This document shows positions 17,288 through 63,219 of a stretch of 64,000 bases of DNA, piece after piece; the first letter of the stretch is position 1, and each line of letters opens with the position of its first letter. The notes under the pieces are model-generated. The model did no database searches and had not been told where the DNA came from. It saw nothing but the letters and a program-made list of their open reading frames with translations. A program made the position numbers and the translations under genes. Origin of the DNA: an uncultured Tolumonas sp. (GTDB taxonomy: Bacteria; Pseudomonadota; Gammaproteobacteria; Enterobacterales; Aeromonadaceae); NCBI RefSeq assembly GCF_963556105.2, contig NZ_OY829945.1:911001-975000 (forward strand). The letters run 5' to 3'.

Positions 17288-17448
17288 CCACACGATCAGC
17301 AGTCTGAGGTTCTGACTGTCTGCTCATCACTGATCGCAATGCTTTTGCCCCATGTTGTCATGGGTTGGGTGACTTTTTCCCGATGCAGGGCAGAAGTGTT
17401 GCGATCCCCTGAATATTCATGCCGGGACGGGCTGAAAGGGGGTGAGTT

Positions 17449-18921: not shown

Positions 18922-18985
18922 TCCGGCCAACCGGCTTTTTAAGCCAATGACAGGATGACATTGAGGCTGCATAGGAAGGGGATGA

Positions 18986-20182
18986 ATGATGGCGACTGCA
19001 AATTTAAATCTGGTTCATGAGACCGAAGCACAACGACGCCACGCACGGGTGAAAATTCCAGCCCGGTTGATCGTGACTGATACGCAACATAATCAATATG
19101 TCATGGAGTTGAATGAGATTTCAGCCAGTGGTTTCAGTGTCATAAATGAAGATGCCCGTTTGCATGTTGATCAGGTCTATCGGGGACGTCTGTTATTTAA
19201 CTTTGATGCCGTGGAATTTGTGCTGAAGGTAAATTTCAAGGTGATTCACCAATGGGCAGATGAACATCGGTTTGGCTGCGAATTTCAGGATCTGGGCACA
19301 CAGGAGATATCCACCTTACGTTTGTTAATCAGCAAGTTTTTGGGGGGTGAGATTGCGCAGGTCAATGATGTATTAACGACGCTGAGTCGGGAAAACTTCA
19401 CTAAAGCGCGAAAAACAGTCAAAACCAGTGCCGGCTTGACCGGCTGGGCGAAAACCAAGGCCTTGTTGGCAACGGCACTCATGTTTGTGGTGGGGCTGGG
19501 GGCATTTTCTTATTTGCTCAGCACACTGGCGAGCCATTATCTGGTTACCGCTGCGCGCAGCGCATCCGTGACTTTGCCACAACAAGCGGTGCTAATGCCA
19601 AAAGAAGGGAATGTTGAATTATTGGTCAAGGTGGGCGCTACGGTTAAAGCGGGTATGCCGGTGGCAAGAGTGCAAGCGCCATGGGCAGAACAGGTCACTA
19701 CATTATTAAAAGCCAGTGCGACACCCGATCCGAAATTACTGTCGTTATTACAAACCCAGATGGATTACACCCTACCTAGCCCCTGTGATTGTGTGGTGCT
19801 GAGCACCGGTGTGACCAACGGTCAGTTTTTGGAGCGGGGAAAACCAGTTGTGCAACTGGTACCGCCACAAAGCCAGCCTTATGTGCAAGCGAATTTCGAT
19901 TATGTCGATTATGCCAAGCTAACCGCCGGACGTAAGGTCATGCTGACTTTACCGGATGGTTTGCCAGAGGTTAGCGGCACTATTTCTCAAGTGCAGATGA
20001 CCGACGGAATACCCATTCCGGCATTAGGCGCGGTGATGGTACAGATCAAACCGGATCAAGCCTTACCAGCGAGCTCGGTTAGCTCACCGGTGGCAGTTTC
20101 TGTCGCACCTGTTTGGTTTGATCGGCTGCGGATGGCTGTCGCGATGCAGGTGAAAAAATTCACTCAAACTGAGGCTGGTTAA
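18986..20182 (+). CDS. alg44: Alginate co-polymerase with PilZ c-di-GMP receptor
   Basis: 398 residues. An N-terminal cytosolic PilZ domain (~residues 10-115), one membrane helix (~155-180) and a periplasmic HlyD-like region with a lipoyl-like hairpin. Binding of c-di-GMP to PilZ is known to be essential for alginate polymerisation in Pseudomonas. The RxxxR motif is present (RRHAR, ~residues 14-18). The second motif reads EISASG, so Glu replaces the usual Asp/Asn of [DN]xSxxG. Affinity may differ, although the remaining residues are intact. It lies 64 bases after alg8. Confidence 0.93.
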   Translation: MMATANLNLVHETEAQRRHARVKIPARLIVTDTQHNQYVMELNEISASGFSVINEDARLHVDQVYRGRLLFNFDAVEFVLKVNFKVIHQWADEHRFGCEFQDLGTQEISTLRLLISKFLGGEIAQVNDVLTTLSRENFTKARKTVKTSAGLTGWAKTKALLATALMFVVGLGAFSYLLSTLASHYLVTAARSASVTLPQQAVLMPKEGNVELLVKVGATVKAGMPVARVQAPWAEQVTTLLKASATPDPKLLSLLQTQMDYTLPSPCDCVVLSTGVTNGQFLERGKPVVQLVPPQSQPYVQANFDYVDYAKLTAGRKVMLTLPDGLPEVSGTISQVQMTDGIPIPALGAVMVQIKPDQALPASSVSSPVAVSVAPVWFDRLRMAVAMQVKKFTQTEAG

Positions 20183-20184
20183 TC

Positions 20185-21648: not shown

Positions 21649-21695
21649 GCTGTCTGCCGATCCCTATACCGAAGTTCAGCATCAAGGAGCAGATA

Positions 21696-24642: not shown

Positions 24643-24644
24643 AG

Positions 24645-25760: not shown

Positions 25761-25840
25761 GCCAGGGCTGGCTGACAAACAAGCCCGTGTAGTCATAGGG
25801 ACAATGTCCTTAACAGCATGAGCAGCATGGAGCAATAATC

Positions 25841-27310: not shown

Positions 27311-27331
27311 CCATGAGCTGACAGAATGCCA

Positions 27332-27457
27332 GTACCCTTCGTACTTGAAGTTGCAGCATCGTTGACGGCGTTCACTCACCCCAATCACATAGCATCTCTA
27401 TGCTCATGGGGCTTTGTTCACTTGTCGCCTTGCTGCAATTCCAATTACTTTGGATAT
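27332..27457 (+). repeat. ERIC-like palindromic repeat, copy 3, inside the alginate operon
   Basis: The element fills most of the gap between algA and algC, both on the plus strand, and is the only large spacer in the downstream part of the operon. Termini are slightly decayed (GTACCC at the left, GGATAT at the right). In RNA it would form a long hairpin, so it could reduce or stabilise expression of algC-manA. Confidence 0.85.
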
Positions 27458-27515
27458 AGAAAGGCTCTGTCAGTGCTTTGTTGCAACAGGATCGTTGATA
27501 GCAGAGGACAGCAAT

Positions 27516-28889: not shown

Positions 28890-28892
28890 ATC

Positions 28893-30167: not shown

Positions 30168-30227
30168 CTTCGTCGATGCCACGTTATGAGTAACGTGGCA
30201 AAGAGGTTTCCTCTGGAGGATAAAGTA

Positions 30228-31526
30228 ATGAAAAAAGCAGGATATCTGATTGCACTGTTGCTTGCGTTCTGGCATTTGCCAGGGCTTGCTGCCAGCAGTT
30301 GTACGGCCGCTAATCTGCGGTATGCCAACTCCAGCAATACCTTATATCTACAAACGGGCGGTATTTGTCGGGTCGCCGATATTGCGGCATTGAAACCGCT
30401 ACAACTGGTTAATCAGGGCGGGGGGATCTATCTGTTAAAGGCGAACCTCAAATTGACCGATGGCTCTGCGTTACTGATCGATGGTGATGATCCGACAGAT
30501 CCTGTCATTGAGTTTCGTCTGTTGTCTAACAACACCGGGCTGGCTAATAGTGTCGTTAATCTGACCGCTGATTACGGCATTGTGCAAATTAACCATACCA
30601 AAGTGCTGTCGTGGGACGAAGCGGTACAGGGGCCGGACACTGATTACACCACGGCTAATCGGGCCTACATTCGTGTGCGATCCGGTGCTGCAGATAAACA
30701 ATCACGCATGGATGTCACCGGCAGTGATATCGGTTATCTGGGCTATTACGCCTCGGAATCATACGGGTTAACCTGGAAAGTATCGGGTACGCTGAATGAC
30801 GTTCGTGTATATGGCAATATTCTCAATAGCCGCATCCACAATAACTATTTCGGGGTGTTCACTTACGGTGCTTACGGCATGATGATCAGCGGTAACGAGT
30901 TTGATCATAATGTGAAATATGGGCTGGATCCGCATGATGATTCCGATTACCTGACCATCACCAGTAACAGTTCCCACCATAATGGCGACCACGGCATTAT
31001 ATGTTCGCAGCGCTGTAACAATCTGGTGATCCGCTACAACAATAGTTACAGCAATGCTGGTCATGGCATCATGCTGCATCGTTCGGTGGATTATTCGCTG
31101 GTGGAGAATAATCAGGTATTTGATAACGAAGATACCGGTATTGCGTTGTTTGAAAGCAACAACAATATTATTCGGGGCAATATTGTGCAGGGTAATAAGA
31201 CCGGCATTCGGCTTTCAGTCGGGTCATCCTATAACAGTTTTCAGGGCAACATGATTTACGGTAGCACTGATAACGGTATTTATACCTTTAAAGGGACGGA
31301 TGAACCGGAGCGGGTAGGCAATGATGGTATCAATCGTGGCAACGTGTGGTCGCAAAACGATATCACGGCGACAGGCGCTTATATTCTCAAATTGAATGCT
31401 ACCGATGGAGACACTTTCAGCGGCAATGATTTTACCGGTAATCCACTGGCTAAGTTTTATGTGAAAGGGGCAACTAATACCATCTATACCGACAATTTAC
31501 TGGATCCCAGCATGTCATTACCTTGA
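30228..31526 (+). CDS. Secreted beta-helix protein, second mannuronan C5-epimerase-like paralogue
   Basis: 432 residues from the ATG at 30228, which has a ggagga site and opens a signal peptide (MKKAGYLIALLLAFWHLPG). Parallel beta-helix (NosD/AlgG type) with many short N/D/G turns. The motif YGLDPHDDSDYL (~residue 236) matches the AlgG catalytic block YGIDPHDRS and also resembles the YG-D-H block of Azotobacter AlgE epimerases, so epimerase activity is plausible. No R-modules and no calcium nonapeptide repeats are seen. The alternative is a lyase or carbohydrate-binding helix. Last gene of the operon, with a terminator after it. Confidence 0.75.
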   Translation: MKKAGYLIALLLAFWHLPGLAASSCTAANLRYANSSNTLYLQTGGICRVADIAALKPLQLVNQGGGIYLLKANLKLTDGSALLIDGDDPTDPVIEFRLLSNNTGLANSVVNLTADYGIVQINHTKVLSWDEAVQGPDTDYTTANRAYIRVRSGAADKQSRMDVTGSDIGYLGYYASESYGLTWKVSGTLNDVRVYGNILNSRIHNNYFGVFTYGAYGMMISGNEFDHNVKYGLDPHDDSDYLTITSNSSHHNGDHGIICSQRCNNLVIRYNNSYSNAGHGIMLHRSVDYSLVENNQVFDNEDTGIALFESNNNIIRGNIVQGNKTGIRLSVGSSYNSFQGNMIYGSTDNGIYTFKGTDEPERVGNDGINRGNVWSQNDITATGAYILKLNATDGDTFSGNDFTGNPLAKFYVKGATNTIYTDNLLDPSMSLP

Positions 31527-46937: not shown

Positions 46938-46965
46938 CCCGGGAGCAATCCCGGGCTTTTTATTT
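46938..46965 (+). terminator. Terminator downstream of fdxB
   Basis: A stem cccggga (46938-46944) / tcccggg (46949-46955) with a 4-base loop, followed by ctttttatttt. The T-run is on the plus strand, so it ends the nifENX-fdxB transcript. It overlaps the last bases of the convergent HDOD gene. Confidence 0.88.
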
Positions 46966-48414
46966 TCCGCGCATGATGTTGGTCAGACATAAATTGGTTT
47001 GCTGCACGAAATGAATGAAATTGAAGAAATCTTCGTTTTCCAGCGTCCGGCCACTGGCAGCGCGATCGGCATAAAATAAGCCGATGCTTTGTTTATCAAT
47101 CTCGATGGGCGAAAGGAAAAAACCGCGGGCACAACTGATCGCTTTGGTAGCCGCAGAAAGCAGATGATTCCAGTGCGGATCGGTATGGCTTTTGACCCAC
47201 AGCGTTTCTTGTGATTGCAAACAATGGTTGAAGATCGAACGCACGCCGGTTAGATCCACGACAAACACTTCTTTCAGTTGCCCTTCGTCTAATGATAAGG
47301 CAAAGCGGGGTTGCAGCTGCGTTTTTTCCCGATTCAGCAGCAACACCAACACCCGATCCATGCCGACTCCAGCGTAGATCCCATGCAGGGATTTCTGCAT
47401 GATCAGATTAATGTCTGCTTTTTCATGTGCCAGTGCCGTGAGTTCCCGTAATATTTTTAGTTGGATAGTATCGTCTGGTTGATTCACCAGCATGACAGCT
47501 TTTTCAGTAGTTAACAAAGGGGCGAGACTGGCATCAAGATAAGGTGACAGCATTAAAGCGCCATAGGTATAAGCCAGATTGATGGTCTCTTCGGCACAGT
47601 TTTTGGCCCGCTGTTTTACCTCTTTGACATCCAGTTTCATCAGTTTACTGAGCACAGTTAATTCTTGCTCTATTTGTACTGGTGTAGTTTTCGGGTTTTG
47701 TAATAACGCACTAAACGTATTGGCTTCAGCAATGGCTTGTAATTCGGGAGTACGTCGTTCCGGATCTTTGAGCGACAGCTGTAACATGCTGCCCATATTC
47801 CAAGAGCTGGCTAAACCGGCACTGATCTTCATAAAACTGGTGCCGAGCATTTCCCGGATGATTTCATTACTATCGCCCTGCGTTTGCCGCAGTTTTTGAT
47901 CGAGCTGTTCGGTGATTGGGCCGCCCATACTCCAGAAGGCACTCTCGCCGAGATTATGTAGCAGTGCCGCGATATAGGCTTCTTCACGGGTGGCTTCGTC
48001 GTAATCAGCGAGGATCATGCGAGCAAGCATGGCGGCATGAAAAGATTGTGCTATCAGACGTAATAAGCGTTCATAGACGGGCTGCGAAATATCGTGGCTT
48101 TTGAGAAGGCTATCGACCAGTTTGGCAGTAATGCAGATCTGCTTTAGCGCATTAAAACCCAGCAGTACCACTGCCCGGCTAATGGTGGTCACCTGATTAC
48201 TGCCACGGCTGTAGGTGACGCTGTTGGCGACGCGTAAAATACGGGTGGTCAACCCATTATCATGCAGGATCGATTTACCCAGATCGGCGAGCGACATATT
48301 GTCATCCTGCGCCATTTTTTCCAGCATCCGCACCGTGGCACACAGTGCCGGCATTTCCTGCACACTGATGCGCTCGATCCAAGCATCGGTTCCACGGGTT
48401 GATTGAATCGCCAT
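46960..48414 (-). CDS. HDOD-domain signalling protein with C-terminal GAF-like domain
   Basis: 484 residues, soluble. HDOD domain (~20-215), an HD-related fold lacking the full metal motif, with ALLHNLGESAFW in place of a canonical HD pair. This is followed by a helical linker and a GAF-like sensor (~320-480). HDOD proteins act as signalling scaffolds in c-di-GMP and stress networks, usually without phosphodiesterase activity. It is antisense to and between nif units, and flanked by an inverted pair of ERIC-like repeats. A link to nif is positional only. Confidence 0.82.
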   Translation of the reverse strand: MAIQSTRGTDAWIERISVQEMPALCATVRMLEKMAQDDNMSLADLGKSILHDNGLTTRILRVANSVTYSRGSNQVTTISRAVVLLGFNALKQICITAKLVDSLLKSHDISQPVYERLLRLIAQSFHAAMLARMILADYDEATREEAYIAALLHNLGESAFWSMGGPITEQLDQKLRQTQGDSNEIIREMLGTSFMKISAGLASSWNMGSMLQLSLKDPERRTPELQAIAEANTFSALLQNPKTTPVQIEQELTVLSKLMKLDVKEVKQRAKNCAEETINLAYTYGALMLSPYLDASLAPLLTTEKAVMLVNQPDDTIQLKILRELTALAHEKADINLIMQKSLHGIYAGVGMDRVLVLLLNREKTQLQPRFALSLDEGQLKEVFVVDLTGVRSIFNHCLQSQETLWVKSHTDPHWNHLLSAATKAISCARGFFLSPIEIDKQSIGLFYADRAASGRTLENEDFFNFIHFVQQTNLCLTNIMRGK

Positions 48415-50503: not shown

Positions 50504-51397
50504 ATGTGGAACTATTCAGAAAAAGTTAAAGATCACTTCTTCAATCCACGCAATGCCAAGGTGATTGCCGATGCGAACGCCGTAGGTGACGTTGGCTCGA
50601 TCAGCTGTGGTGATGCGTTACGTTTGATGTTGCAGGTCAACACAGAGAGCGAAATTATTGAAGATGCCGGTTTCCAGACCTTTGGTTGCGGCAGCGCCAT
50701 TGCCTCTTCTTCTGCGCTGACCGAGATGGTGATTGGTAAAACTCTGGATGACGCGCTGAAGATCAGCAACATGGATATTGCTGATTATCTCGATGGTCTG
50801 CCACCGGAAAAAATGCACTGCTCGGTTATGGGCCAGGAAGCGCTGCAAGCGGCGATTGCCAATTTCCGCGGCGAAGAGTGGCACGATGACCATGAAGAAG
50901 GCGCATTGATCTGTAAATGCTTTGCGGTGGATGAAGTCAAAATCATCAAAGCGGTGAAAGAAAACGGCCTGACTTCGATTGCCGATGTGATCAACTACAC
51001 CAAAGCCGGTGGTGGTTGTGGCGCCTGCCACGAAAAAATTGAACAAGCCTTGCAGAAAGTGCTGGCAACTCAGCCGTGTAACGAAGCACGCATTGCCACT
51101 ACCAGTCTGGAACGCAGCAAAGTCGCACCGCATGTCGATCTGGCGAAGAAAGATGAAAACTGGCGCACGGTGGCCGCTGTACTGGAAGAGATGCGTCCAC
51201 GTCTACAGGCCGATGGTGGTGATGTGGCCTTGATCAGTGTCACCGACAGCAAAGTAGAAGTGGCACTGTCAGGCAGCTGTGTTGGCTGCATGATGACCGA
51301 CATGACGCTGTCTTGGATCCAACAAACGTTGATGGAAAAAATGGGCCGTTACATGCAGGTCGTGAGCGTGACGCAGGCTGAAACAGCACTGGTTTAA
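50504..51397 (+). CDS. nifU: Nitrogenase-specific Fe-S scaffold NifU
   Basis: 297 residues with the three NifU parts: an IscU-like scaffold (~1-125; Cys in [16 protein letters not shown] and MHCSVMG), a central [2Fe-2S] BFD-like domain (~130-190; CKC and CGAC pairs) and a C-terminal Nfu domain (~220-290; SGSCVGCMM). It assembles clusters with sulfur from NifS. An aaggaga site precedes the ATG. Confidence 0.98.
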
Positions 51398-51408
51398 GGA
51401 GACGGAAC

Positions 51409-52614
51409 ATGAAAGCGATCTATCTGGATAACAACGCCACCACCCGTCTCGACCCGATGGTGCTGGAAGCCATGATGCCATTTATGACTGAACATTATGG
51501 TAACCCGTCTTCCATTCACGGTTTCGGTGAGCCGGTGCGCAAAGGCATCGAGCGTGCGCGTGAACAGGTCGCCGCTCTGTTAGGCGCCGCGCACGACAGC
51601 GAAATTATTTTTACCTCTTGTGCAACAGAGGCCAACAGCACGGCTATTTTGTCGGCGGTAGAAGCTTTACCAGAACGTAAAGAGATCATCACCACCGTGG
51701 TGGAACACCCGGCCATTCTGGAAGTGTGTGAACATCTGGAACGCCGTGGTTACACCATTCACCGGTTACCCGTCGATAACCAAGGTCGTCTCGATTTAGC
51801 GCATTACCAGTCGCTGCTCAGCGAAAACGTCGCGCTGGTGAGTGTGATGTGGGCAAATAACGAAACCGGCACTGTGTTCCCGGTGCAAACCATGGCGACC
51901 ATGGCGAAAGAGAAAGGCGTGTTGTTCCATACCGATGGTGTACAGGCGGTGGGGAAATTTCCGATCCACTTGGCCAGCAGTGACATCGACATGCTCTCTT
52001 TTTCCGGCCATAAAATTCACGCACCAAAAGGCGTGGGTGCGTTGTATGTCAAACGTGGCAGCCGTTTCCGCCCATTATTGCGTGGTGGTCATCAGGAACG
52101 TGGCCGTCGTGCCGGTACTGAAAATGCTGCTGGTATTGTAGGTCTCGGTATGGCTTGTGAGTTGGCGGAAGTGCACATGCCGATCATGTCGCATTTGGCA
52201 GAACTGCGTGACGAACTGCAAGCAGGTTTATTGGCAAAAGTGCCGTGTTCTATCGTGACCGGTGATAGTGAAAATCGCACGCCGAATACGCTGAATATCG
52301 CCTTTGAATATATCGAAGGGGAAGCCATTCTGCTGATGCTAAACCAACTCGGCATTGCAGCATCGAGTGGTAGTGCCTGCACCTCCGGCTCTTTAGAACC
52401 ATCACACGTCATGCGTGCGATGAGCATTCCCTATACCGCGGCACATGGCAGCGTGCGTTTCTCACTGTCGCGTTACACTCGCCAAAAAGAGATCGATTAT
52501 GTGCTGGAAAAACTGCCACCAGTGATCGAGCGTCTGCGTTCACTGTCACCGTACTGGGTGCAGAACAAACCGGATCTGGAAAAAATGGGCGAGTTTGCAC
52601 CGGCGTATGGTTAA
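51409..52614 (+). CDS. nifS: Cysteine desulfurase NifS
   Basis: 401 residues, class V PLP enzyme that releases sulfur from cysteine for NifU. PLP-Lys in SFSGHKIHAPKGVG, active-site Cys loop SSGSACTSGSLEPSHV, and N-terminal IYLDNNATT. Twelve bases after nifU with an aaggaga site. No nifV, W, Z, M, B, L or A follows, so these must be elsewhere. Confidence 0.98.
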   Translation: MKAIYLDNNATTRLDPMVLEAMMPFMTEHYGNPSSIHGFGEPVRKGIERAREQVAALLGAAHDSEIIFTSCATEANSTAILSAVEALPERKEIITTVVEHPAILEVCEHLERRGYTIHRLPVDNQGRLDLAHYQSLLSENVALVSVMWANNETGTVFPVQTMATMAKEKGVLFHTDGVQAVGKFPIHLASSDIDMLSFSGHKIHAPKGVGALYVKRGSRFRPLLRGGHQERGRRAGTENAAGIVGLGMACELAEVHMPIMSHLAELRDELQAGLLAKVPCSIVTGDSENRTPNTLNIAFEYIEGEAILLMLNQLGIAASSGSACTSGSLEPSHVMRAMSIPYTAAHGSVRFSLSRYTRQKEIDYVLEKLPPVIERLRSLSPYWVQNKPDLEKMGEFAPAYG

Positions 52615-52642: not shown

Positions 52643-52666
52643 GGGGCCTTCTGGCCCCTTATTTTT
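52643..52666 (+). terminator. Terminator of iscA-nifUS
   Basis: A stem ggggcc (52643-52648) / ggcccc (52653-52658) with a 4-base loop, followed by ttatttttt. Confidence 0.88.
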
Positions 52667-52786
52667 TGCGTGTTTTTATTCCACGATTGAGTTACTTCAT
52701 CTTTCCATCATTTATGCTGTGATATAACTGTTTAAGTATTAAGCCGCGTTACTAATAGCAAAAATCTGAATTAAGGAACAAGGCAT

Positions 52787-54796
52787 ATGTCATTGAGTTT
52801 AATGCTGAAAAATACTGTACTCGGCCGAATTTTGATGTTGCTGGGAATTGGCGCCATTTTCGTTCTTATTTTTGAATTCTGGGCTTTTTCGTATAAGACC
52901 CGAGTTGATGCGGCCAATGAAAATAATCAGCAAATAACACAATCAATAAATGCATTACGCGCTGACATCGTATCGCGAAATGCGCTCTACAATCGCTTAA
53001 CTGAACATGACATGTTTTGGATAAAACAGCATTTCTCTGGTGACTGGCAAGTTCAGCCAGACCCGCAAAATAATGCCAATCCCCAATTATTATTTAATGG
53101 CTCGCCTGTCGCTGAACAACAAATCTATCTCGATCGTTTTTCCAGTAATGGTTCCAGTGCCGGAATTTTAGTCCGTAATGGCGAGCTGTTTTCATTTGCC
53201 CTGTGCAGTGATAAAGACAAAAGCCATAATGTCTTGGATAAAGATAATCCGGCGACGGCAGAATTGTTGGCAGGAAAGCCATATCGCGGCATTTTCTTTA
53301 GCGCCGATAACTGGAGTTATGGTTTTTTTGAACCCATCAAAAATGCCAATAATATGGTTATTGGTGCTATTTACAGCGGCATTAATATCACGACAGACAT
53401 CCAACAATTTATTCAGCACACCAGCACTATTACCATTGGTCAGCACGGGTATGTTGCCATTATTAATGTAAATAAAGGCAGCTCATTCGGCGTACCTGTA
53501 TTTCATCCTTCATTAACGTCTGCCTTAGCTATTCTGGCGGAAAAAGATGTCACGACCGGCCAGCCCGTTCTCACCACTATGCTGGCGCAACAAAAAGGTA
53601 ATATCGATTACACACTGAATGCACAAAGCGGGCTGCAACATGCTTATTTCGAGGTTTATGCGCCATGGGGATGGTTGCTGAATGTAGTCATGCCTGAGCA
53701 GGATATGCAGCAACTCATTGTAAAAAACGCTTTATTCAGTATAGGTTCGATGCTGATTGGAACCGTATTTATGGGGTTATTCGGCTGTATTGTGCTCATT
53801 CGTAATCTGCTGCCACTGCAAACCATCAGCGCCAGTTTAAGTGCCATTGCCGCCGGTGACATGACGACAGATTTAGCGGTGCCCAAACAAAATACCGAAA
53901 TTCGCCGGCTGGCACTGGAATCAAAAATGATGCAGCAAAAGTTGCGGGCGATGATCCACTCGATCCAGTCGTCGGCCAGAGAAGTAAAACATGAGGTGGT
54001 GTTACTGGCGACAGAAACAGAGCATATGGGCAATTCAGCCCGGGTCATGGAAGAACAAACCACCAGACTGACCTCTATCGCGCGTGAACTGCAAAGCACC
54101 ACGCAAACGGTTCAGCAATATTGTGCTGATTCGAAAGTGCAAATGGGAGTGATTCACGATCATGTGCACAGCGGTGTCATGGTGATTGCCAATGCGGAAG
54201 AGAACATCGTGGCGATCAATAGTCGAATGCAAGAAGTCGTCAATTCATCCAGCCAGGTACAACGCGCAACGGATGATATTGTTAATCTGGTGAATGCTAT
54301 TCAGCAGATTGCGAATCAGACGAATTTACTGGCATTAAACGCCGCGATTGAAGCCGCCAGAGCGGGTGAACATGGGCGCGGTTTTGCGGTCGTTGCCGAC
54401 GAAGTGAGAAATTTATCTATCAAAGTCAGCGAAACATTATCTGAAGTCACTCAGGTGGTTGATTCCATCCGGGTTGCTTCACAACAGGCCACTAACTTCT
54501 CACATAAAACGGCAGAGCAGATCTCGCTGATAGAAAAACAGGATATGCGGCAGGTGGAAGAGCAATTTGAGGCTATAATCTTTGCTCAGGATGAAATGGC
54601 CCAACGCATTGAGAAGATAGTTGATTCCATGATCCTGCAGCGAGAAGTAGCCGATAACATTACTAATGCAGCGAATGAAACGCATGTAGTGTCAGAGCAA
54701 ACGAGCCGGGCTGCGCAGACCATGAATACACTGAGTGAATCAACGTCGCAGATCTCAGAGCAGCTGGTGGAAGCCGTTAATGGATTTAAGGTGTAA
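52787..54796 (+). CDS. Methyl-accepting chemotaxis protein with periplasmic Cache-type sensor
   Basis: 669 residues. Membrane helix ~15-35, a large periplasmic Cache-like ligand domain (~40-310) with [21 protein letters not shown] and [11 protein letters not shown] at its end, a second helix (~315-340), HAMP (~345-395) and a cytoplasmic signalling domain. The hairpin tip region [19 protein letters not shown] and the following [15 protein letters not shown] are intact. Ligand is unknown. It begins after the nifS terminator, 4 bases before a lipoprotein gene, and may steer cells toward conditions suited to nitrogen fixation (inference). Confidence 0.92.
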
Positions 54797-54799
54797 CGC

Positions 54800-55234
54800 A
54801 TGTCTTCAGTAAAAAAAACAATATTAGTCAGTATTGTTGTCGGGCAATTGCTGGCGGGTTGTCAGTCGGTTACCGGTAGTGAAAAAGACAAATCAGCAGC
54901 CACGAAAAAGGGCAAAGAGCCATCACAACTATTTCTGGCTGATTTGAAAAAAAATGGTGACCATCTGTTTTGTGAGCAACCGGCGTATCTGCATTGTTTC
55001 CGGCAGACTAAAACAAAATGTTTAAAAGACTTAGCTGAAGTGAAAGAGCCTTGTTTGCAAAGTGCGTTGCAAAGCAATGGCGGTCAGGTGGCTGACAGTA
55101 ATTATAAGAAAGTCGGTAATGATTTTGCATTATGTATGTTGGTCAAACATGCCTTGATGTATCCGCAACGGGCAGATGCCATCGGGCGTTGTTTAGATGA
55201 TGCTAAATTTGACAATAAACCAGTAACAAACTGA
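54800..55234 (+). CDS. Cys-rich lipoprotein of unknown function
   Basis: 144 residues. The lipobox LLAGCQS predicts an envelope lipoprotein. The mature part has six further Cys (LFCEQ, LHCFR, TKCLK, EPCLQ, ALCML, GRCLD) in a mainly helical fold, which could form disulfides in the periplasm. No family recognised. It starts 4 bases after the chemoreceptor stop, so it is probably co-expressed and may modulate that receptor. Confidence 0.7.
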   Translation: MSSVKKTILVSIVVGQLLAGCQSVTGSEKDKSAATKKGKEPSQLFLADLKKNGDHLFCEQPAYLHCFRQTKTKCLKDLAEVKEPCLQSALQSNGGQVADSNYKKVGNDFALCMLVKHALMYPQRADAIGRCLDDAKFDNKPVTN

Positions 55235-55324: not shown

Positions 55325-57910
55325 ATGGGACGTCAGACGTTGATGTCTACTACAAACGCTAATATCGCGGCTGTTGGCACGATAACAATTGATGAAATGG
55401 GTCGTATTACCGCTTTTGATGATGTGGCTGTACGTTTGTTTGGGTATGAATCGGCGGAAGTGGTGGGAAAGAATGTCTCCATGTTGATGCCGGAGCCGTA
55501 TCATTCCCAGCATGATGGTTATCTAGCTCGCTATCACCAAACATCGACACCACACGTAATTGGTAAAGGCCGCGAGGTGACCGGACGACGCAAAGACGGT
55601 TCGTTATTTCCGGTCTGGCTGGCGGTCAATGAAGTTACCTTTGGCGCTAATCGTCTGTTTGTTGGCTGCATCGTCGATTTATCTGATCTCAAAGCCACAA
55701 AAGCCGATCTGCTCAGCAGCACCGAAGTGACGCGCGCCATTCTTGAAACGGCAGTAAATCCAATCATTACCATCGGCGCAAAAGGCCATATTTGTTCGTT
55801 TAATCCTGCGGCGGAACGTATGTTTCAATACACCGCCAGTGAAGCTATTGGCCGGAACGTTAATATGCTTATGCCGTCGCCTTATCGGGAAGAACACGAT
55901 GGTTATCTGTCGCGTTATTTACAGGAAGGCAACCCTCGTATTATCGGCGTGGGGCGCGAGGTAACCGCACAACGTAAAGATGGCTCCATCGTTCCCATCC
56001 ATTTATCTGTGGGGGCGATGAAGATCTCCGGTGAGCCCATGTTTGTCGGCATCATTTCCGATATCAGTGAACAGAAACGCCACGAGGCGGAGCTGCAAGC
56101 GAAAAAAGCCGCGGAAGCGGGTTCCCGTGCTAAATCCGCTTTTCTGGCGCACATGAGCCATGAAATTCGCACACCAATGAATGCCATCCTTGGGTTTACC
56201 GAACTGGCCTTGCAAGATCACACGTTGTCACCCGAAACCGCCAAGCATCTGGACACCATTTATGGTTCAGCGCGTGCACTGCTGACGATCATCAACGATA
56301 TTTTGGATGTCTCCAGGCTGGAAGCAGGAAAATATAAGCTGGAAATCATCGGCTTTCATCTGCCCAACATGATTGCCGAGACGGTAGAGCTGATGCATCA
56401 GCGTGCCGCGGAAAAAGACCTGATCATCAGCATTAAATACGATCGTCACTTACCGCAACGCGTGAAAGGCGATCCGACCCGGTTGCGTCAGGTCATCCTG
56501 AATTTACTCAGCAATGCGGTTAAATTCACCAACAAAGGCTCCATCAAAGTCGTGGTTTCAGCAACAAGCAAACCAGACCGCATTCAGTTTGATGTTATTG
56601 ACTCTGGCATCGGTATGTCGGAAGCGGAAATGACCAAAGTATTTGAGCCCTTCATGCAGGCTGACAGTTCGATCTCTCGCCGTTTTGGCGGCACCGGGCT
56701 GGGTACAACCATTTGTAAACAAATCATTGAACTGATGAATGGCGATATCTGGCTTGAAAGTCAGTTAGGCGTTGGTACTACCGTGCATTTTGTTGTTCCG
56801 CTACCGGAAACGGAGCCGGATCAGATCTGTTTGTACGAAGAGATCCAAAATAAAAGCGAAGATTTTATTCCGCCGCGTTTATTTAACGTGTTGTTGGTGG
56901 AGGATCTCGAAAATAACGCTTATCTGGCCACTATCCGCCTGAAACAGATCGGGCATGAAGTGGAATGGGCCAAAAATGGACTGGAGGCGATCGCGGCATA
57001 TCAAAAAGGCGGCCACGATTTGATCCTGATGGATGTCATGATGCCGGTGATGGATGGCTTACAGGCCACCCGTGAGATCCGCCAATTAGAGTCTCTGCAA
57101 GAGAAACATATTCCCATCATTGCGCTGACGGCAAGTGTGATGAAAGAAGATGAGATGAAATATCTGGAAGCGGGAATGGATGCCATTGCCGGAAAACCGA
57201 TCGATTTTGACCAGCTATTTTCGTTGATGGAAGCGATGGTGCCGCAAGGGGCAGGGCGGATAAACCATGCCATCATGATTGAAATGCCGGTGAATAAAAA
57301 TATTGATTTAACCCCGTTGAGCCCGGCGGCTGATTACCAGAAAGCCATGAAAAACTGGGTGGATGTTTACGCTTATATCAAAGCGTTGACCCAGTTTTCA
57401 CAACAGCAGATCGATGATGCCGACATTATTTTGCACTTGCTGGAACAACACCCCGATGATGTTGAGCCGGCACGTGCGGTTGCACATGCCCTCAAAGGGC
57501 TGGCCGGTAATCTGGCATTATCTAAAGTGGCTGATTTAGCTGTTCATATCGATGGACATTTGAAGTCCGGACGACGTGATGAGGCGAGCCGGTTACTGGC
57601 GCCATTACGTCAGGCATTAATAGAAGCCGATAATTGCATTCAGACATTATCGCTGCCCAATGACGCCAGTGTTTTACTGAAAGATTTTGATTTAGTTGCC
57701 GTGCAGCAATTGTTTCAACAACTATCGCTGGCCTTAGACGAACTAAACCCTGATAGCACCGAACCGATCATGAAGCAGATCAGCGAATACGTTCGCGGAA
57801 GCGATCTGGCTGAGATTTATCACCATATTGAGCGATTTGATTTTCACAGTGCGAAAAAAGAGTTGCGAAAATTAGCACAAAGTCTGCTCGCCAATAGGAG
57901 GTCAGAATGA
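55325..57910 (+). CDS. Soluble hybrid histidine kinase with two tandem FixL-type haem-PAS domains, REC and Hpt
   Basis: 861 residues, no membrane segments. PAS1 (~15-125) and PAS2 (~140-250) both resemble the FixL oxygen-sensing PAS. Relative to Bradyrhizobium FixL H200/R206/H214/R220, PAS1 has H63/R69/H77/R83 at identical spacing, and PAS2 has H191/R197/R205/R211. Then HisKA with H279 in SHEIRTP, HATPase (~385-495; N, DSGIG and GGTGLG boxes), REC (~520-640, phospho-Asp 570) and Hpt (~690-800, His721 in HALKGLAGN). Predicted oxygen-responsive phosphorelay feeding the HD-GYP regulator that overlaps it by 4 bases. No strong ribosome site; a second ATG at 55343 is possible. Confidence 0.92.
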   Translation: MGRQTLMSTTNANIAAVGTITIDEMGRITAFDDVAVRLFGYESAEVVGKNVSMLMPEPYHSQHDGYLARYHQTSTPHVIGKGREVTGRRKDGSLFPVWLAVNEVTFGANRLFVGCIVDLSDLKATKADLLSSTEVTRAILETAVNPIITIGAKGHICSFNPAAERMFQYTASEAIGRNVNMLMPSPYREEHDGYLSRYLQEGNPRIIGVGREVTAQRKDGSIVPIHLSVGAMKISGEPMFVGIISDISEQKRHEAELQAKKAAEAGSRAKSAFLAHMSHEIRTPMNAILGFTELALQDHTLSPETAKHLDTIYGSARALLTIINDILDVSRLEAGKYKLEIIGFHLPNMIAETVELMHQRAAEKDLIISIKYDRHLPQRVKGDPTRLRQVILNLLSNAVKFTNKGSIKVVVSATSKPDRIQFDVIDSGIGMSEAEMTKVFEPFMQADSSISRRFGGTGLGTTICKQIIELMNGDIWLESQLGVGTTVHFVVPLPETEPDQICLYEEIQNKSEDFIPPRLFNVLLVEDLENNAYLATIRLKQIGHEVEWAKNGLEAIAAYQKGGHDLILMDVMMPVMDGLQATREIRQLESLQEKHIPIIALTASVMKEDEMKYLEAGMDAIAGKPIDFDQLFSLMEAMVPQGAGRINHAIMIEMPVNKNIDLTPLSPAADYQKAMKNWVDVYAYIKALTQFSQQQIDDADIILHLLEQHPDDVEPARAVAHALKGLAGNLALSKVADLAVHIDGHLKSGRRDEASRLLAPLRQALIEADNCIQTLSLPNDASVLLKDFDLVAVQQLFQQLSLALDELNPDSTEPIMKQISEYVRGSDLAEIYHHIERFDFHSAKKELRKLAQSLLANRRSE

Positions 57911-58887
57911 AGAAAAAGATCCTACTGGTCGACGATGAGCCGAATAACCTGCAATTACTCCGGCAGATATTGAGAGCTTCATACCAGCTTATCTTCGCGC
58001 ATAACGGGCAGTCCGCGCTTGCCGCCGTCGCGGCGCATCATCCGGATTTGATCTTGTTAGATGTCATGATGCCCGATCTGGATGGTTATGAAGTCTGCCG
58101 TCGTTTAAAAGCTGATCCATTAACCCATGATATTCCAGTCATTTTTGTCACAGCAATGGGTGATGTCGATGATGAAGCTGCCGGGTTTGATGTGGGGGCA
58201 GTGGATTATATCCATAAACCCGTTTCCCCCGCGATTGTGATCCGCCGGGTGCAAACGCATCTCTCGCTGGTGCATGTCAAAGAGCTGGAAGATAGTCAGC
58301 GCGAAGCGATTTATATGCTCGGTGCCGCAGGCCACTATAACGACAACGATACTGGCCTGCATGTCTGGCGTATGGCGGCATATGCCAGAGCGCTTGCGGA
58401 AGCCTTTGGCTGGCCTGAACATTTGGCGGAACGGCTGGAGCTTGCTGCGCCATTGCACGATACCGGTAAGATTGGGATACCGGATGGCATCTTGAAAGCT
58501 CCACGTAAATTAACTGCGGAAGAGTGGGTGACCATGCGGCAGCACTCCCTCATTGGCTATGAAATTTTACAATGCAGTCATACCCCGATTTTTAAAATGG
58601 CGGCTGAAATTGCGCTCTATCATCATGAAAAATGGGATGGCAGCGGTTATCCGAAAGGGCTGGCTGGTGACAATATTCCACAGTCGGCACAGATCGTTGC
58701 GATAGCCGATGTTTTTGATGCGTTAACCATGAAGCGTTCTTACAAAGAAGCCTGGAGTGTTGAAGCCTCACTCGAAGATATGCGCGCCAACAGCGGCACA
58801 CATTTTAATCCGGCACTGCTGACCATCTTTTTGAATATCCTGCCAAAAATACTGAATATCAAAAAAGAGTGGGACGAAAAGGATTAG
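57907..58887 (+). CDS. Response regulator with HD-GYP c-di-GMP phosphodiesterase (RpfG-like)
   Basis: 326 residues. REC domain (~1-120) with phospho-Asp52 in LILLDVMMPDLDG, and HD-GYP domain (~135-310) with HD at 184-185 (LHDTGKIGIPDG) and HHEKWDGSGYP at 239-249. All catalytic landmarks are kept, so it should hydrolyse c-di-GMP. The ATG overlaps the kinase stop (ATGA) and has an aggagg site inside the kinase gene. The pair parallels RpfC/RpfG, but the sensor is haem-PAS-like, not a membrane quorum sensor. Confidence 0.95.
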   Translation: MKKKILLVDDEPNNLQLLRQILRASYQLIFAHNGQSALAAVAAHHPDLILLDVMMPDLDGYEVCRRLKADPLTHDIPVIFVTAMGDVDDEAAGFDVGAVDYIHKPVSPAIVIRRVQTHLSLVHVKELEDSQREAIYMLGAAGHYNDNDTGLHVWRMAAYARALAEAFGWPEHLAERLELAAPLHDTGKIGIPDGILKAPRKLTAEEWVTMRQHSLIGYEILQCSHTPIFKMAAEIALYHHEKWDGSGYPKGLAGDNIPQSAQIVAIADVFDALTMKRSYKEAWSVEASLEDMRANSGTHFNPALLTIFLNILPKILNIKKEWDEKD

Positions 58888-59242: not shown

Positions 59243-60439
59243 ATGAGTGTTAATAAGCTGAATGACAACAAGCTAAAAGCGCTTCTAAAAAAGTCGGTAG
59301 AAAAAGAGTCATGGATAGCTGATGGTGACGGTTTGGCTATCCGTGCTCAGATCAGTGGTAATTTGACTTGGTATTACAGATATCGCCTTGGTGGACGTGA
59401 TACTAAACTAGAAAGGCTGCTTCTTGGTAAGTATCCAGACTTGTCATTATCTGCAGCCAGAAAACTTAGGGATAAATGTCGCGCTTGGTTGGCTGAAAAT
59501 AAAGATCCTCGCTTTATGCTAGACAGAGATACTCAAGAAACACTGAAGCCAGTCACCGTTAAGGATGCTTTAGAATATTGGGTTAACAATTACGCAGCAC
59601 ACAATCGAAAATATCCAGAGAAAGACCGTTCGCAGTTACAAGTTCATATTTATTCCAAGATAGGTTCAGTACCACTTCATATGGCTGATCGTAGACATTG
59701 GCTTTCAGCTCTAGAACAAATCACTCGCAAAGGGTCTCCAGTTGCTGCTGGTTGCGTTCTTCAAGTTTGTAAACAAGCACTTAGATATTGTGATCGCCGA
59801 GGATATGCCACCAGCACGGCATTAGAGCAACTGACTATTCCGGATGTCGGAAAAAAACATGGGAAACGAGATCGTGTTCTGACTGATGTTGAACTAGGTG
59901 GATTATGGAGATTACTTCATAGCAATGAAATACAGACATATTACCAAGACATGCTTTTGCTGATTACTGTCTTTTGCGCTAGAACGGGTGAGGTCAGACT
60001 TTCAACATGGGATGAATGGGATCTTAATGCCAAACTCTGGACTGTCCCGAAAGAAAACAGTAAGACTGGTGAGCGCATCACCAGACCTATTCCTGATCGA
60101 GTGATTCCTTGGCTGGTGGATATGAGTCAGCGAAATAAAGGGCCTTTCATCCTTGGCGAGGTTAGAGAACCGGATGCTGTTAGTCAGTTTGGTCGAAGAT
60201 TATACAAGCATAGAATATTGAATCATGGTGAAGGCTGGTCTCTACACAGCTTACGGCACACGTTTATTACAAAAAATGCCGACTTGGGTGCACCTCCTCA
60301 TATCGTGGAGTTACTAGCTGGGCATGAACTGGGTGGGGTATTTAGTGTTTATAACAAAGGCGAATATTTAATGGAGAAAAAGCAGGTCTTGGATAGATAT
60401 CTTGATCGGTTGGAATTATTAGCTGGACTAACAGTGTGA
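59243..60439 (+). CDS. Tyrosine recombinase / P4-type integrase
   Basis: 398 residues. N-terminal DUF4102 arm-binding domain (~1-95; DGDGLAIRAQISG, GKYPDLSLSAARK), core-binding helical region (~100-190) and catalytic domain (~205-395). Catalytic residues are visible: Arg in CARTGEVRL, HSLRHTF, His in AGHELGG and Tyr in VYNKGEY. It directs site-specific integration, usually at tRNA 3' ends. The stop codon abuts a tRNA-Thr 3' fragment, so the att core lies at the 3' end of the gene. It appears intact. Confidence 0.93.
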   Translation: MSVNKLNDNKLKALLKKSVEKESWIADGDGLAIRAQISGNLTWYYRYRLGGRDTKLERLLLGKYPDLSLSAARKLRDKCRAWLAENKDPRFMLDRDTQETLKPVTVKDALEYWVNNYAAHNRKYPEKDRSQLQVHIYSKIGSVPLHMADRRHWLSALEQITRKGSPVAAGCVLQVCKQALRYCDRRGYATSTALEQLTIPDVGKKHGKRDRVLTDVELGGLWRLLHSNEIQTYYQDMLLLITVFCARTGEVRLSTWDEWDLNAKLWTVPKENSKTGERITRPIPDRVIPWLVDMSQRNKGPFILGEVREPDAVSQFGRRLYKHRILNHGEGWSLHSLRHTFITKNADLGAPPHIVELLAGHELGGVFSVYNKGEYLMEKKQVLDRYLDRLELLAGLTV

Positions 60440-60442
60440 AAT

Positions 60443-60490
60443 GCATTCGTAATGCGAAGGTCGCAGGTTCAACTCCTGTTACCGGCACCA
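60443..60490 (+). other. 3' fragment of tRNA-Thr(CGT): probable attachment-site remnant
   Basis: From the anticodon arm (GCATTCGTAATGC, anticodon CGT) through a good T-arm (GCAGG/CCTGT around TTCAACT) to ACCGGCACCA, this is the 3' half of a tRNA-Thr related to E. coli thrW. The 5' half is missing; its place is taken by the integrase stop. Such fragments mark the att repeat left when an element enters a tRNA gene. It is not a working tRNA. Confidence 0.85.
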
Positions 60491-60646
60491 ATAAAATCAG
60501 TAACATATGTAGACTCATCCTTTCCATTTTTCCTTTAAATCCACTTTGCGTACTTGTTTAGCAAAACATAAAATCCGTCTACATGTCTTTCTTCGTTTAT
60601 TATTCGGAGCTGATTTTCTATAAAAACATCAATGCAGGAGAATAAA

Positions 60647-61435
60647 TTGGGTTTATACGACAGGATTAATGACCAGATTGAAAAGTCTCAGAATGCTAGT
60701 TCTCAGTTCATCAGTCTGAGAAATATCTACATATATCTTAAAAATCATCACGCAGAAGCAAGCAGCGAATCATTACTTTCATCATTGGATGCTGAATACC
60801 AGAGTCTTGAGGTAAAGCCTCAATTCTATGAGTTAAATGGTGGGCGTTTAATGCAGATTAATCAGCATTTTCAGATCCCGGCAAAAGCATCCTCATTTGA
60901 GGCGCTAGGAAAAAGCTTTCCAATTACATTATCTCGGATCATATCTGATATTAAGAATGATCCATTAGAACACCAATCAGCTAAGAAATATGGGTTCATC
61001 AGAGATGAGATCAATAAGGCTCTGGGAATTGATTTTCCTGAAATGCCTTGCGAGCTCCGTGACTATGAAGCTGAACTTTCTGAGTTAAGAGCCGAAAATG
61101 AAAAATTGAAAGCAAGCAAAAAGAAACCTCATCCTAATTCAGAAAGAAATGCGGTTGATAGAGAAGATGTATTAAGTGCATTGATTTCAATTCTTTACGA
61201 GCCGGAATTCTATATAAGTGAACAACAACTCAAGAGAGCCAAAATTCCTGATTTAACAATTCGTAAGTTGATAAAGATATTAAACTCTGTATTACCAAAT
61301 CAAACGCAGTTGGTAAAAATTTTAAATGAAAAGAGTCGATTGTTTTGGCCTATTGATAATGAACCGCCTATAGGTGATGAAACTATTAAGGTACATCTAT
61401 CGGAATCCATTAATCGTATAAAAAATGCACAGTAG
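60647..61435 (+). CDS. Hypothetical mobile-element protein with coiled coil
   Basis: About 262 residues. I prefer a TTG start at 60647, 6 bases after a caggag site, over the ATG at 60632, which lies upstream of that site and has none of its own. A short coiled coil (ELSELRAENEKLKASKKK) sits near residues 140-160 between two helical regions. No signal peptide or known domain. A/T-rich like the rest of the element. Function unknown. Confidence 0.55.
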   Translation: MGLYDRINDQIEKSQNASSQFISLRNIYIYLKNHHAEASSESLLSSLDAEYQSLEVKPQFYELNGGRLMQINQHFQIPAKASSFEALGKSFPITLSRIISDIKNDPLEHQSAKKYGFIRDEINKALGIDFPEMPCELRDYEAELSELRAENEKLKASKKKPHPNSERNAVDREDVLSALISILYEPEFYISEQQLKRAKIPDLTIRKLIKILNSVLPNQTQLVKILNEKSRLFWPIDNEPPIGDETIKVHLSESINRIKNAQ

Positions 61436-61543
61436 TCTGTACAGAGTACATAAGTACTCTGTAATTTTTGCTGGTATTTGTGTGCTTTAATCGCCTGGTA
61501 TCGAATTGATGCAAATAATTTCAACTCATATACAGGAGCATTT

Positions 61544-61774
61544 ATGCACGATGACAAAAGCATACCCAAAACAACTATGTCAGAGAAGATCACTTCGTTT
61601 TATCAGCCACAACGCATGATCCGTATCAAGATGATGTTGGAATGGTTGGACTGCAGCAGAACTACGTTGTATCGCTGGGTTCAGGATGGCAAATTTCCAA
61701 AGCCAAAAATGAATGGCGGACGTACTTTAGGTTGGACATACAGTCAATATGAACAGTGGTTGACGGAACACTAA
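61544..61774 (+). CDS. AlpA-family prophage/island regulator
   Basis: 76 residues. MerR-like winged HTH of the AlpA family: RIKMMLEWLDCSRTTLYRWV, then DGKFPKPKMNGGRTLGW and the WLTEH end. These small activators switch on excision or late genes of P4-like elements. ATG at 61544 follows caggag. A strong terminator follows directly. Confidence 0.85.
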   Translation: MHDDKSIPKTTMSEKITSFYQPQRMIRIKMMLEWLDCSRTTLYRWVQDGKFPKPKMNGGRTLGWTYSQYEQWLTEH

Positions 61775-61786
61775 ACAATACAAAAG

Positions 61787-61810
61787 GCTGGCATCGTCCA
61801 GCTTTTTTTT
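61787..61810 (+). terminator. Terminator after alpA-like gene
   Basis: A stem gctgg (61787-61791) / ccagc (61798-61802) with a 6-base loop and an eight-T run. Confidence 0.85.
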
Positions 61811-61878
61811 CATCTGTTTCATCGAAACAATTTGAAACAAGAAAACATTAAATCCAGCTAAATAAAACAAAATCTTAT

Positions 61879-63219
61879 ATGTCTCAAGACCAGCACACAC
61901 AAGACTTTGCGGGTGATTTATATTCATCAGAAAGTCCGGATATTAATAATATTACCCGCCCTTATTCTGACGTTGAAGTGATCAAACCCAAAGGAGAGTT
62001 CCTATTCAACGACTTTCTGTGGAAAGTACTTCCTGCGAACGATCAGCAAAACGGAAAAATGATGAAACGTATCTTTGAAATTGTTGATCAAGTATCAGGG
62101 CTGTCATCTCGTTTTCTTGCTGTTCGCTATGATTTGCATTTGAAGGAATTCCAATCAAATAACCAGGTGATTGATATTTTCCATAAGAATCTATTTGGTC
62201 AATTACGCAAACGCTACCCGAGGTCTTTTCTCAGTTACATATGGGTTCGAGAAAGAAACGAAGCCGATGCACAGCACTATCATTATGCTTTGATGATGGA
62301 TGGAAACTACATTCGTAGCCCAAACAAATTAAATGATATTGTAAAAATGTGTTGGGAAGAGGCTGCTGGTGGATCTGTCTGGTTTCCTGACAATATGACT
62401 TACTTTGTTAAGCCGAATGATATTGACACTTACAGCAAGCTAATGATTCGTCTTAGCTATTTTGGAAAGAATGCGACTAAGGAGTCTTCGGATGTCTGTA
62501 AGAAACGTATAGGTTTTGGAATACGGAAAGCACGAAAGACGGGGTCAATGTCAGCCAAAACATATAAGAAACTAGAAACGCAAGATTCTGAGCTTGTACA
62601 AGCAGTTGAGCCTGAGTTTAAAAATGTTTCTACGAATGTAGAACCAGAATCAGCGCTAAGTTTCTGCGGTAAGTTGGATAAATATTTTACACATGATCAT
62701 TCTCTGGAGTTATTAAAGCCACCAGCACAGCCTATTAAGTATGATGTATTAAATCGATGGGTGGTTTGGTCGCGCCCTGATTGGAAATGGCATCGTCTGA
62801 ATTATGTTTATGAAGCATTGTCTACGGGTGTTTGTTTATCGGAATATGCTGAAAAATACGCATTAAGCCTTACTCGCACCTACGCGAATTTCCGCCAAGT
62901 AGGTGGGCAGAGTCTTCGTACAATTCATTGGGCTTGGCATAGACGTTGTTTGTATTTTAGTGATATGTCACTGAGCGAATACATTGCTGAAAAAACACTA
63001 TATTCAAACATGGCCGTTAGGCAATTACAACGCAGACCAATGTCGGAGTTTTGGAGTAGGCATTTTGATAATTATTACCGTAAATATTGGCTGCAGGGTT
63101 ATACCGTTTCGTATTATTGCCGTGTTTACAGTTTAAATGTTAGTACAGCAAGACGGTATCTGGTCGACTTCCCTAATGCTGCATTGATCGATCCGTTTGT
63201 TTTGAAACCCTGGTTGTGA
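61879..63219 (+). CDS. Inovirus Gp2-like / YagK-YfjJ C-terminal domain protein
   Basis: 446 residues. The region ~45-215 matches the YagK/YfjJ C-terminal (inovirus Gp2) family often found beside alpA in P4-like islands, with FLSYIWVRERNEADAQHYHY and a WFPDN...SYFGKNATKE block. The HYH in QHYHYAL recalls HUH replication proteins, so a replication role is possible but unproven. The C-terminal third (WRVVWSRP-like, repeated Trp/Tyr blocks) is not recognised. No clear ribosome site before the ATG, so the start is uncertain. Confidence 0.72.
   Translation: MSQDQHTQDFAGDLYSSESPDINNITRPYSDVEVIKPKGEFLFNDFLWKVLPANDQQNGKMMKRIFEIVDQVSGLSSRFLAVRYDLHLKEFQSNNQVIDIFHKNLFGQLRKRYPRSFLSYIWVRERNEADAQHYHYALMMDGNYIRSPNKLNDIVKMCWEEAAGGSVWFPDNMTYFVKPNDIDTYSKLMIRLSYFGKNATKESSDVCKKRIGFGIRKARKTGSMSAKTYKKLETQDSELVQAVEPEFKNVSTNVEPESALSFCGKLDKYFTHDHSLELLKPPAQPIKYDVLNRWVVWSRPDWKWHRLNYVYEALSTGVCLSEYAEKYALSLTRTYANFRQVGGQSLRTIHWAWHRRCLYFSDMSLSEYIAEKTLYSNMAVRQLQRRPMSEFWSRHFDNYYRKYWLQGYTVSYYCRVYSLNVSTARRYLVDFPNAALIDPFVLKPWL

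Follow-up and report, generated by a model that had tools for sequence, protein, structure and literature searches.

The FixL kinases of Bradyrhizobium japonicum and Sinorhizobium meliloti sense oxygen with a haem-binding PAS domain, and are active in the absence of O2. Only the second PAS domain of FixL is known to bind haem. In Xanthomonas, RpfC, a membrane sensor of diffusible signal factor, passes phosphate along a HisKA-HATPase-REC-Hpt relay to RpfG, a REC-HD-GYP phosphodiesterase of cyclic di-GMP (c-di-GMP). Here we analyse a pair of genes that appears to combine elements of both systems. The pair lies in a window of 64,000 nucleotides (the whole stretch of DNA analysed) from an uncultured Tolumonas sp. 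(Aeromonadaceae; assembly GCF_963556105.2, contig NZ_OY829945.1, positions 911,001 to 975,000, forward strand), and encodes a hybrid histidine kinase with two FixL-type PAS domains, predicted to bind haem, followed directly by a REC-HD-GYP protein.

The kinase shares with FixL the haem-PAS fold and residues and the placing of tandem PAS domains ahead of the kinase core, as in the structure 8js5. It differs in that both PAS domains carry the haem residues, in being a soluble hybrid kinase with REC and Hpt domains, and in having an HD-GYP protein instead of FixJ as its partner. Its relay is that of RpfC/RpfG, with a soluble protein and haem-type PAS domains in place of the membrane sensor. AxPDEA1 is said to couple an O2-binding haem to c-di-GMP hydrolysis within one polypeptide and without a kinase. 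Aer2 of Vibrio cholerae also has dual haem PAS domains in one sensor, but is a chemoreceptor and not a kinase. DosP (PMC4263535) and a GCS-HD-GYP protein of Vibrio fluvialis (PMC10882959) likewise control c-di-GMP hydrolysis by an O2-binding haem, with sensor and enzyme in one polypeptide and no kinase. In the NosP-NosK-NosR system of Burkholderia, a haem gas sensor acts through a kinase on a REC-HD-GYP protein; there, the sensor is a separate FIST-domain protein for nitric oxide (NO), and the HD-GYP domain of NosR is described as degenerate (PMC12570481). AvGReg of the diazotroph Azotobacter vinelandii ties an O2 sensor to c-di-GMP as well, but is a globin-coupled cyclase that makes the messenger, with alginate as the downstream product (PMC12350332). 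The parts are already known, namely the route from haem through a kinase to REC-HD-GYP (for NO), O2-haem control of HD-GYP within one protein, and the RpfC/RpfG relay; the O2 wiring predicted here would be a new variation on them. We found no report of a FixL-type haem PAS kinase driving a REC-HD-GYP protein among the listed titles and abstract beginnings of open-licence PMC papers. A 2022 census of c-di-GMP stimuli calls direct demonstrations that a stimulus acts on a histidine-kinase sensor exceptionally rare in c-di-GMP networks, and the term FixL is absent from its main text (PMC8846402). The Tolumonas pair is soluble and consists of two genes, so that the O2 stimulus, the haem PAS sensor, the relay and the enzyme could all be assayed together in a single tube, and its relatives with one to three FixL-type PAS domains, or without haem residues in the PAS domains, offer natural controls.

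The kinase open reading frame (55325-57910) has 861 amino acids, and the original prediction took ATG 55325 as its start. That codon occurs in this genome only, while the codon at 55340 is TTG in six of six compared sequences, so the start is more likely TTG 55340 and the protein probably has 856 amino acids. Residues are numbered from ATG 55325 throughout. Pfam finds two PAS stretches, HisKA, HATPase_c, REC and Hpt, which bears out the earlier reading of a REC-Hpt end. The HisKA histidine (H279), the ATPase domain, the REC aspartate (D570) and the Hpt histidine (H721) are all present; together with D52 of the HD-GYP protein, these residues support the prediction of a complete His-Asp-His-Asp relay in the pair. 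The kinase had also been called soluble, and we found no membrane helix in it: the largest 19-residue Kyte-Doolittle mean is 1.27, against 3.13 in a membrane-bound paralogue. It falls below the cut-off of the FixL equivalog family (NCBIfam sens_FixL_Rhizob, 307.6 bits against 850).

The case for haem rests on the PAS domains. Searched on its own, PAS1 finds 14 distinct PDB sequences at E<=1e-3; FixL takes the top seven places, and six of the remaining seven are DosP/Ec DOS. PAS2 matches 17, again with FixL in all top seven places. The E values against FixL (3.6e-29 for PAS1, 2.6e-34 for PAS2) exclude a chance likeness. The oxygen-pocket residues of FixL had been reported in both domains at the right spacing. 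They are indeed there, and align without insertions or deletions on H200, R206, H214 and R220 of B. japonicum FixL (BjFixL). H63 and H191 occupy the place of the proximal histidine H200 on the F helix, R83 and R211 that of R220, which we take to be the distal arginine, and R69/R197 and H77/R205 those of R206 and H214, presumably the propionate contacts. None of the eight residues varies among five orthologues. The hydrophobic pocket, which we take to be I215, L236 and I238 in BjFixL, corresponds to V78, L99 and V101 in PAS1 and to I206, L227 and V229 in PAS2, as counted on the alignments.

The AlphaFold model of the tandem PAS domains (six aligned sequences; mean local confidence, pLDDT, 79.9; global score, pTM, 0.52) has the FixL tandem-PAS structure 8js5 as its best PDB match. 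Its F helices (54-68 and 182-196) hold model residues 58 and 186, with both histidines on F helices, and the modelled PAS2 superposes on BjFixL (1lt0) at 1.6 A over an ungapped stretch of 117 residues, in which the numbering offset stays constant and H191 falls on H200 and R211 on R220. Built without haem, the model supports the FixL fold and the placement of the residues; haem binding itself is a prediction. For S. meliloti FixL, Soret bands near 418 nm (oxy) and 434 nm (deoxy) are reported. Taken together, the evidence supports two FixL-type haem PAS domains in one kinase as a prediction from sequence. The further proposal that the change from H to R in PAS2 gives a second O2 affinity was dropped. 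The haem domain of S. meliloti FixL (1d06) reads H-R-R-R at the four positions, so R in PAS2 is ordinary and no second affinity follows from it; a relative, the metagenome-assembled genome MC-03, carries R at this position in each of the three FixL-type PAS domains that it has. By residues, PAS1 is of the B. japonicum type (H-R-H-R) and PAS2 of the S. meliloti type.

The partner protein has 326 amino acids, REC and HD_5/HD domains by Pfam, and 4mcw as the nearest solved sequence. The claim that it is catalytically complete was upheld: H152, H184, D185, K188, H213, H239, H240, the GYP motif and D268, including those that we take to be metal ligands, are intact. It is a predicted c-di-GMP phosphodiesterase with an RpfG-like output, and lies below the NCBIfam NosR cut-off (160.6 bits against 400). 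The neighbour of the kinase is this protein and not a FixJ-type transcription factor. The kinase stop overlaps the HD-GYP start, as had been noted, in an ATGA behind an AGGAGG, and from this arrangement we read the two genes as translationally coupled.

The pair is not unique to Tolumonas, and FixL-type PAS domains are also carried by relatives from other genera. A search for relatives matched 8 of 120 genomes including its own, all within the genus (G004 through a paralogue only), and wider searches, again counting its own, matched 5 of 369 in the class and 36 of 398 in the phylum. The relatives named here are a sample, from a contig scan with two short receiver-domain patterns covering 80 of 553 relatives, and may lack records near the window. 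Loci taken from whole-genome searches have 1.5-kb flanks, which makes missing HD-GYP neighbours lower bounds on pairing, and some rows were chosen for such a neighbour, so that no pairing rate can be derived. A profile of the FixL-type PAS domains was applied to thirty kinases. Seven were left out of the pair trees, four as broken, fused or differently placed (L017, L019, L065, L100) and three for having no HD-GYP gene in their flanks (L153, L152 and L057, the last two being the same protein). The trees of the 23 kinase cores and of the 23 HD-GYP proteins share a 13-row group that includes the pair of the window (support 98/97 and 100/100), although several rows are long and the finer branching is weak. 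Kinase and HD-GYP distances correlate at 0.897, a value reached by none of 5000 permutations (19 representatives). Co-inheritance of the two genes is supported, with part of the correlation reflecting common species history.

The proximal histidine and distal arginine occur in 12 of the 13 rows of this group (five of them Tolumonas near-copies) and, of the 10 rows outside it, in L170 only. In MC-03, the kinase is 50% identical and its PAS domains 65% and 61%; it retains seven of the eight residues, with R in place of H77, and has a third FixL-type PAS, and no nif genes were seen by eye among the reading frames of its locus, no search aimed at nif having been made. Pairs without haem residues also exist (a Tolumonas paralogue, MHYT-like by eye, Alteromonas and Vibrio sinaloensis), as do kinases with them and no nearby HD-GYP gene; input and output modules have therefore been shuffled in both directions. 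The paralogue of this genome (L019, G000:C1:878.3-883.1 kb) is a membrane-bound hybrid kinase forming a second kinase/HD-GYP pair, with the HD-GYP protein in two frames here and in a single frame in G002, G003, G004, G009 and G010. In a planctomycete locus (L065, 4459-11538), a kinase with one H-R-R-R PAS is followed by an 884-residue protein that bears an HD-GYP motif, which may be another, separate instance of this wiring. A viral origin found no favour: in a scan of viral contigs, the only locus confirmed, L134, matched by its PAS alone.

From these features, we propose a cytoplasmic haem-based O2 sensor that controls c-di-GMP breakdown through a phosphorelay of four steps. In each PAS domain, the F-helix histidine (H63, H191) would bind haem, and the G-strand arginine (R83, R211) would contact bound O2. 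Without O2, the kinase would autophosphorylate at H279, and phosphate would pass to D570, H721 and finally D52 of the HD-GYP protein, which would activate c-di-GMP hydrolysis; with O2, the kinase would be off or act as a phosphatase, and c-di-GMP would rise. That oxygen directly sets c-di-GMP breakdown, as first proposed, is what we infer from sequence. The direction is carried over from FixL by analogy: because FixL is active without O2, low oxygen should lower c-di-GMP and favour swimming. We incline, by a little better than even chances, to the whole chain, in which low O2 turns the phosphorelay on, c-di-GMP falls and cells swim, and O2 reverses this. Its most likely output in Tolumonas would be a decision between swimming at low O2 and attachment in its presence, with alginate added in species that have it.

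Swimming and alginate are both usual outputs of c-di-GMP, and the distribution of genes in the genus seems to favour the former. Flagellin is found in G000, G002, G003, G006, G009 and G010, and FliG in G000, G001, G002, G003, G009 and G010, so that one or both markers occur in 7 of 7 genomes with the kinase and in 0 of 4 without (Fisher p 0.003, ignoring kinship). The alginate gene alg44 (G000, G001, G003, G007, G009, G010) agrees with the kinase in 8 of 11 genomes. The motile T. lignolytica (G002, 99% complete) has the kinase only, T. auensis (G007, complete) has alg44 only, and G006 (87%) is the third mismatch. Because of this difference we rank motility above alginate, and alginate as an obligate output was rejected on the two clear exceptions, G002 and G007.

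The original prediction also linked the pair to nitrogen fixation. The position given as beside nif needs qualifying: the kinase lies 2.7 kb downstream of nifS, behind a terminator, a chemoreceptor gene and a small lipoprotein-like gene. The functional tie is weakened. A hairpin-T terminator separates nif from the cassette in 5 of 5 genomes looked at. A consensus scan of the window gave no NifA/sigma-54 site for the cassette, the nearest matches being inexact or in coding sequence. Only one -24/-12 match in the window is perfect, and it lies at 50057, ahead of nifU; on the plus strand, no match with two mismatches or fewer lies between 53114 and the kinase start, and the one at 53098 falls inside the chemoreceptor gene. 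No FNR-like sites occur between nifS and the kinase. Across the genus, nifK is found in 9 of 11 genomes and the kinase in 7 of 11 (cut by a contig end in G006, damaged or misassembled in G001), and three genomes have nifK without a kinase match (G005, G007 and the 70% complete G008). In G009, the cassette has nifS on one side and a phoH-like gene (so named by eye) on the other; in G007 and G005 the phoH-like gene follows nifS without a cassette. We rejected membership in the nif operon on the terminator, the lack of a NifA/sigma-54 site for the cassette by consensus scan of the window and the three nifK genomes without a kinase match. The cassette sits at the border of nif with no clear sign of belonging to it, and judging by gene distribution the system seems tied more to swimming than to nitrogen fixation.

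Several points weigh against the chain from oxygen to swimming. FixL-type residues alone are no proof of haem uptake, the model leaves the orientation of the domains uncertain (pTM 0.52, about 5 A across the tandem), and the Hpt match is barely above the Pfam cut-off (27.9 against 24.6 bits). The genome has 14 HD_5 matches, some within one protein, and one phosphodiesterase may not set the c-di-GMP pool. V. sinaloensis (L056) keeps the kinase/HD-GYP pairing without haem residues; conversely, L153 and L057 keep the histidine and arginine with no HD-GYP gene in the examined flanks, so the partner is not obligatory. The motility correlation may reflect a single gain or loss in the genus. Each flagellar marker on its own misses one of the seven genomes (flagellin in G001, FliG in G006), the kinase of G001 is damaged or misassembled and that of G006 incomplete at a contig end, and the kinase-free G004 and G008 are only 63% and 70% complete. 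The G001 orthologue (L028, 1-2278) lacks about 97 residues and has a frame change, which may be an assembly fault in this genome of 730 contigs. The sign of the response also differs between species in NosP haem-kinase-HD-GYP systems (PMC12570481), and in B. dolosa, where fix pathway activity does rise in low O2, c-di-GMP and biofilm departed from the simple expectation (PMC8406202).

An alternative output is protection of nitrogenase: O2 would stop the phosphodiesterase, c-di-GMP would rise and activate Alg44 through its PilZ domain, and an alginate layer would slow O2 entry, so that the nif, alginate and sensor genes of the window would work as a single unit of physiology, for which AvGReg with alginate in Azotobacter offers a parallel. 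The alginate-type cluster with an Alg44-like gene within the window, the FNR-box-like sites ahead of it, the frequency of nifK in the genus and the O2-binding globin cyclase that supplies c-di-GMP to Alg44 in A. vinelandii all fit; the mismatches of alg44 and kinase (G002, G007, G006), the terminator and the lack of a NifA/sigma-54 site by consensus scan do not, and we think this unlikely. A broader scheme is also unlikely in our view. In it, the kinase would read O2 over two ranges with its two pocket types, convert O2 to c-di-GMP by phosphorelay and, in a diazotroph, set swimming against a state in which an alginate coat protects nitrogenase, and cassettes with one to three FixL-type PAS domains would serve other Pseudomonadota at oxic-anoxic boundaries.

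The input may also be other than oxygen. Haem in the PAS domains could report NO, CO or redox state, as FixL haem domains also bind CO and NO (according to PDB structure titles) and a relay from NO through haem and kinase to HD-GYP is established (PMC12570481); the distal arginine and pocket nevertheless follow FixL, and in sequence and in fold the closest matches come from FixL and DosP, both sensors of O2, which makes such an input distinctly unlikely. We give about the same small chance to PAS domains that carry no functional haem in vivo and serve as ordinary dimer or relay modules, leaving an RpfC/RpfG-like relay whose input is unassigned. The pairs that lack haem residues would suit this, but the Tolumonas orthologues all retain the four residues in both PAS domains, and so does MC-03 at 65% and 61% PAS identity, with R in place of H77. 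That the kinase senses O2 and acts mainly on another response regulator, with the adjacent HD-GYP protein fed mostly by other kinases, strikes us as very improbable: some related kinases lack an HD-GYP gene in the examined flanks and the genome has a second related kinase locus, yet the genes here are coupled, their trees are congruent, and the paralogous kinase has its own HD-GYP gene next door. Direct wiring from O2 through the kinase to its neighbour is the reading that we keep.

Features of the kinase/HD-GYP locus and its surroundings, in window positions
Feature	Positions	Strand	Basis or remark
Hybrid histidine kinase, tandem FixL-type PAS-HisKA-HATPase-REC-Hpt	55340..57910	+	start TTG 55340; Pfam
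PAS1, FixL-type; H63 (55511-55513), R69, H77, R83 (55571-55573)	55364..55699	+	PDB sequence matches; orthologues
PAS2, FixL-type; H191 (55895-55897), R197, R205, R211 (55955-55957)	55748..56083	+	PDB matches; BjFixL superposition
HisKA (H279 in HEIRTP) and HATPase_c	56129..56806	+	Pfam; H279 invariant in 5 orthologues
Internal receiver domain, predicted phospho-acceptor D570	56888..57223	+	Pfam; D570 invariant in 5 orthologues
Hpt domain, H721	57386..57631	+	Pfam 27.9 bits, cut-off 24.6; H721 invariant in 5 orthologues
AGGAGG ribosome-binding site	57896..57901	+	sequence
ATGA overlap of kinase stop and HD-GYP start	57907-57910	+	sequence
REC-HD-GYP response regulator (D52; H152, H184-D185, K188, H213, H239-H240, GYP, D268)	57907..58887	+	Pfam; relatives
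nifU and nifS, end of nif cluster	50504..52614	+	open reading frames, Pfam
Intrinsic terminator after nifS	52643..52668	+	hairpin-T at same place in G002, G003, G009, G010
Cache_3-Cache_2 chemoreceptor (methyl-accepting chemotaxis protein)	52787..54796	+	Pfam
Small cysteine-rich lipoprotein-like reading frame	54800..55234	+	just 5' of kinase; no Pfam match
PAS-GGDEF protein	10083-11663		in window
Alginate-type cluster: nucleotide-sugar dehydrogenase, GT2, Alg44-like PilZ-HlyD, Sel1, beta-helix proteins, AlgX, alginate lyase, GMP/PMI, phosphomannomutase	15977-31526
Alg44-like PilZ-HlyD protein, candidate c-di-GMP effector	18986..20182	+	in alginate-type cluster

The genes between nif and the kinase differ in their spread. 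In all 4 of the other genomes with a contig spanning this site, the lipoprotein-like gene directly precedes the kinase, and the chemoreceptor is found in 1 of 11 genus genomes at E<=1e-100, namely this one. A stretch like its last 24 codons is present at the same place in G003, G009 and G010 (upstream of the lipoprotein gene in L024, L025 and L027), where the chemoreceptor gene was probably deleted.

Four FNR-box-like sites, each with one mismatch (15475, 15578, 15805, 15863), lie in a 970-base AT-rich gap before the alginate cluster, a number seen in none of 2000 Markov shuffles; they may point to control by O2 or by CRP/FNR. Such sites occur at three of the four places in G009 and G010, at one in G003 and at none in the T. 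auensis stretch. An HDOD-domain protein is encoded on the minus strand (46960-48414) between the nif genes and nifU, and is so placed in G002, G003 and G009 too. The HD-GYP gene is directly followed by genes for a tyrosine integrase and a YagK/YfjJ-type protein (59243-63219), which mark a mobile element where G009 has its phoH-like gene.

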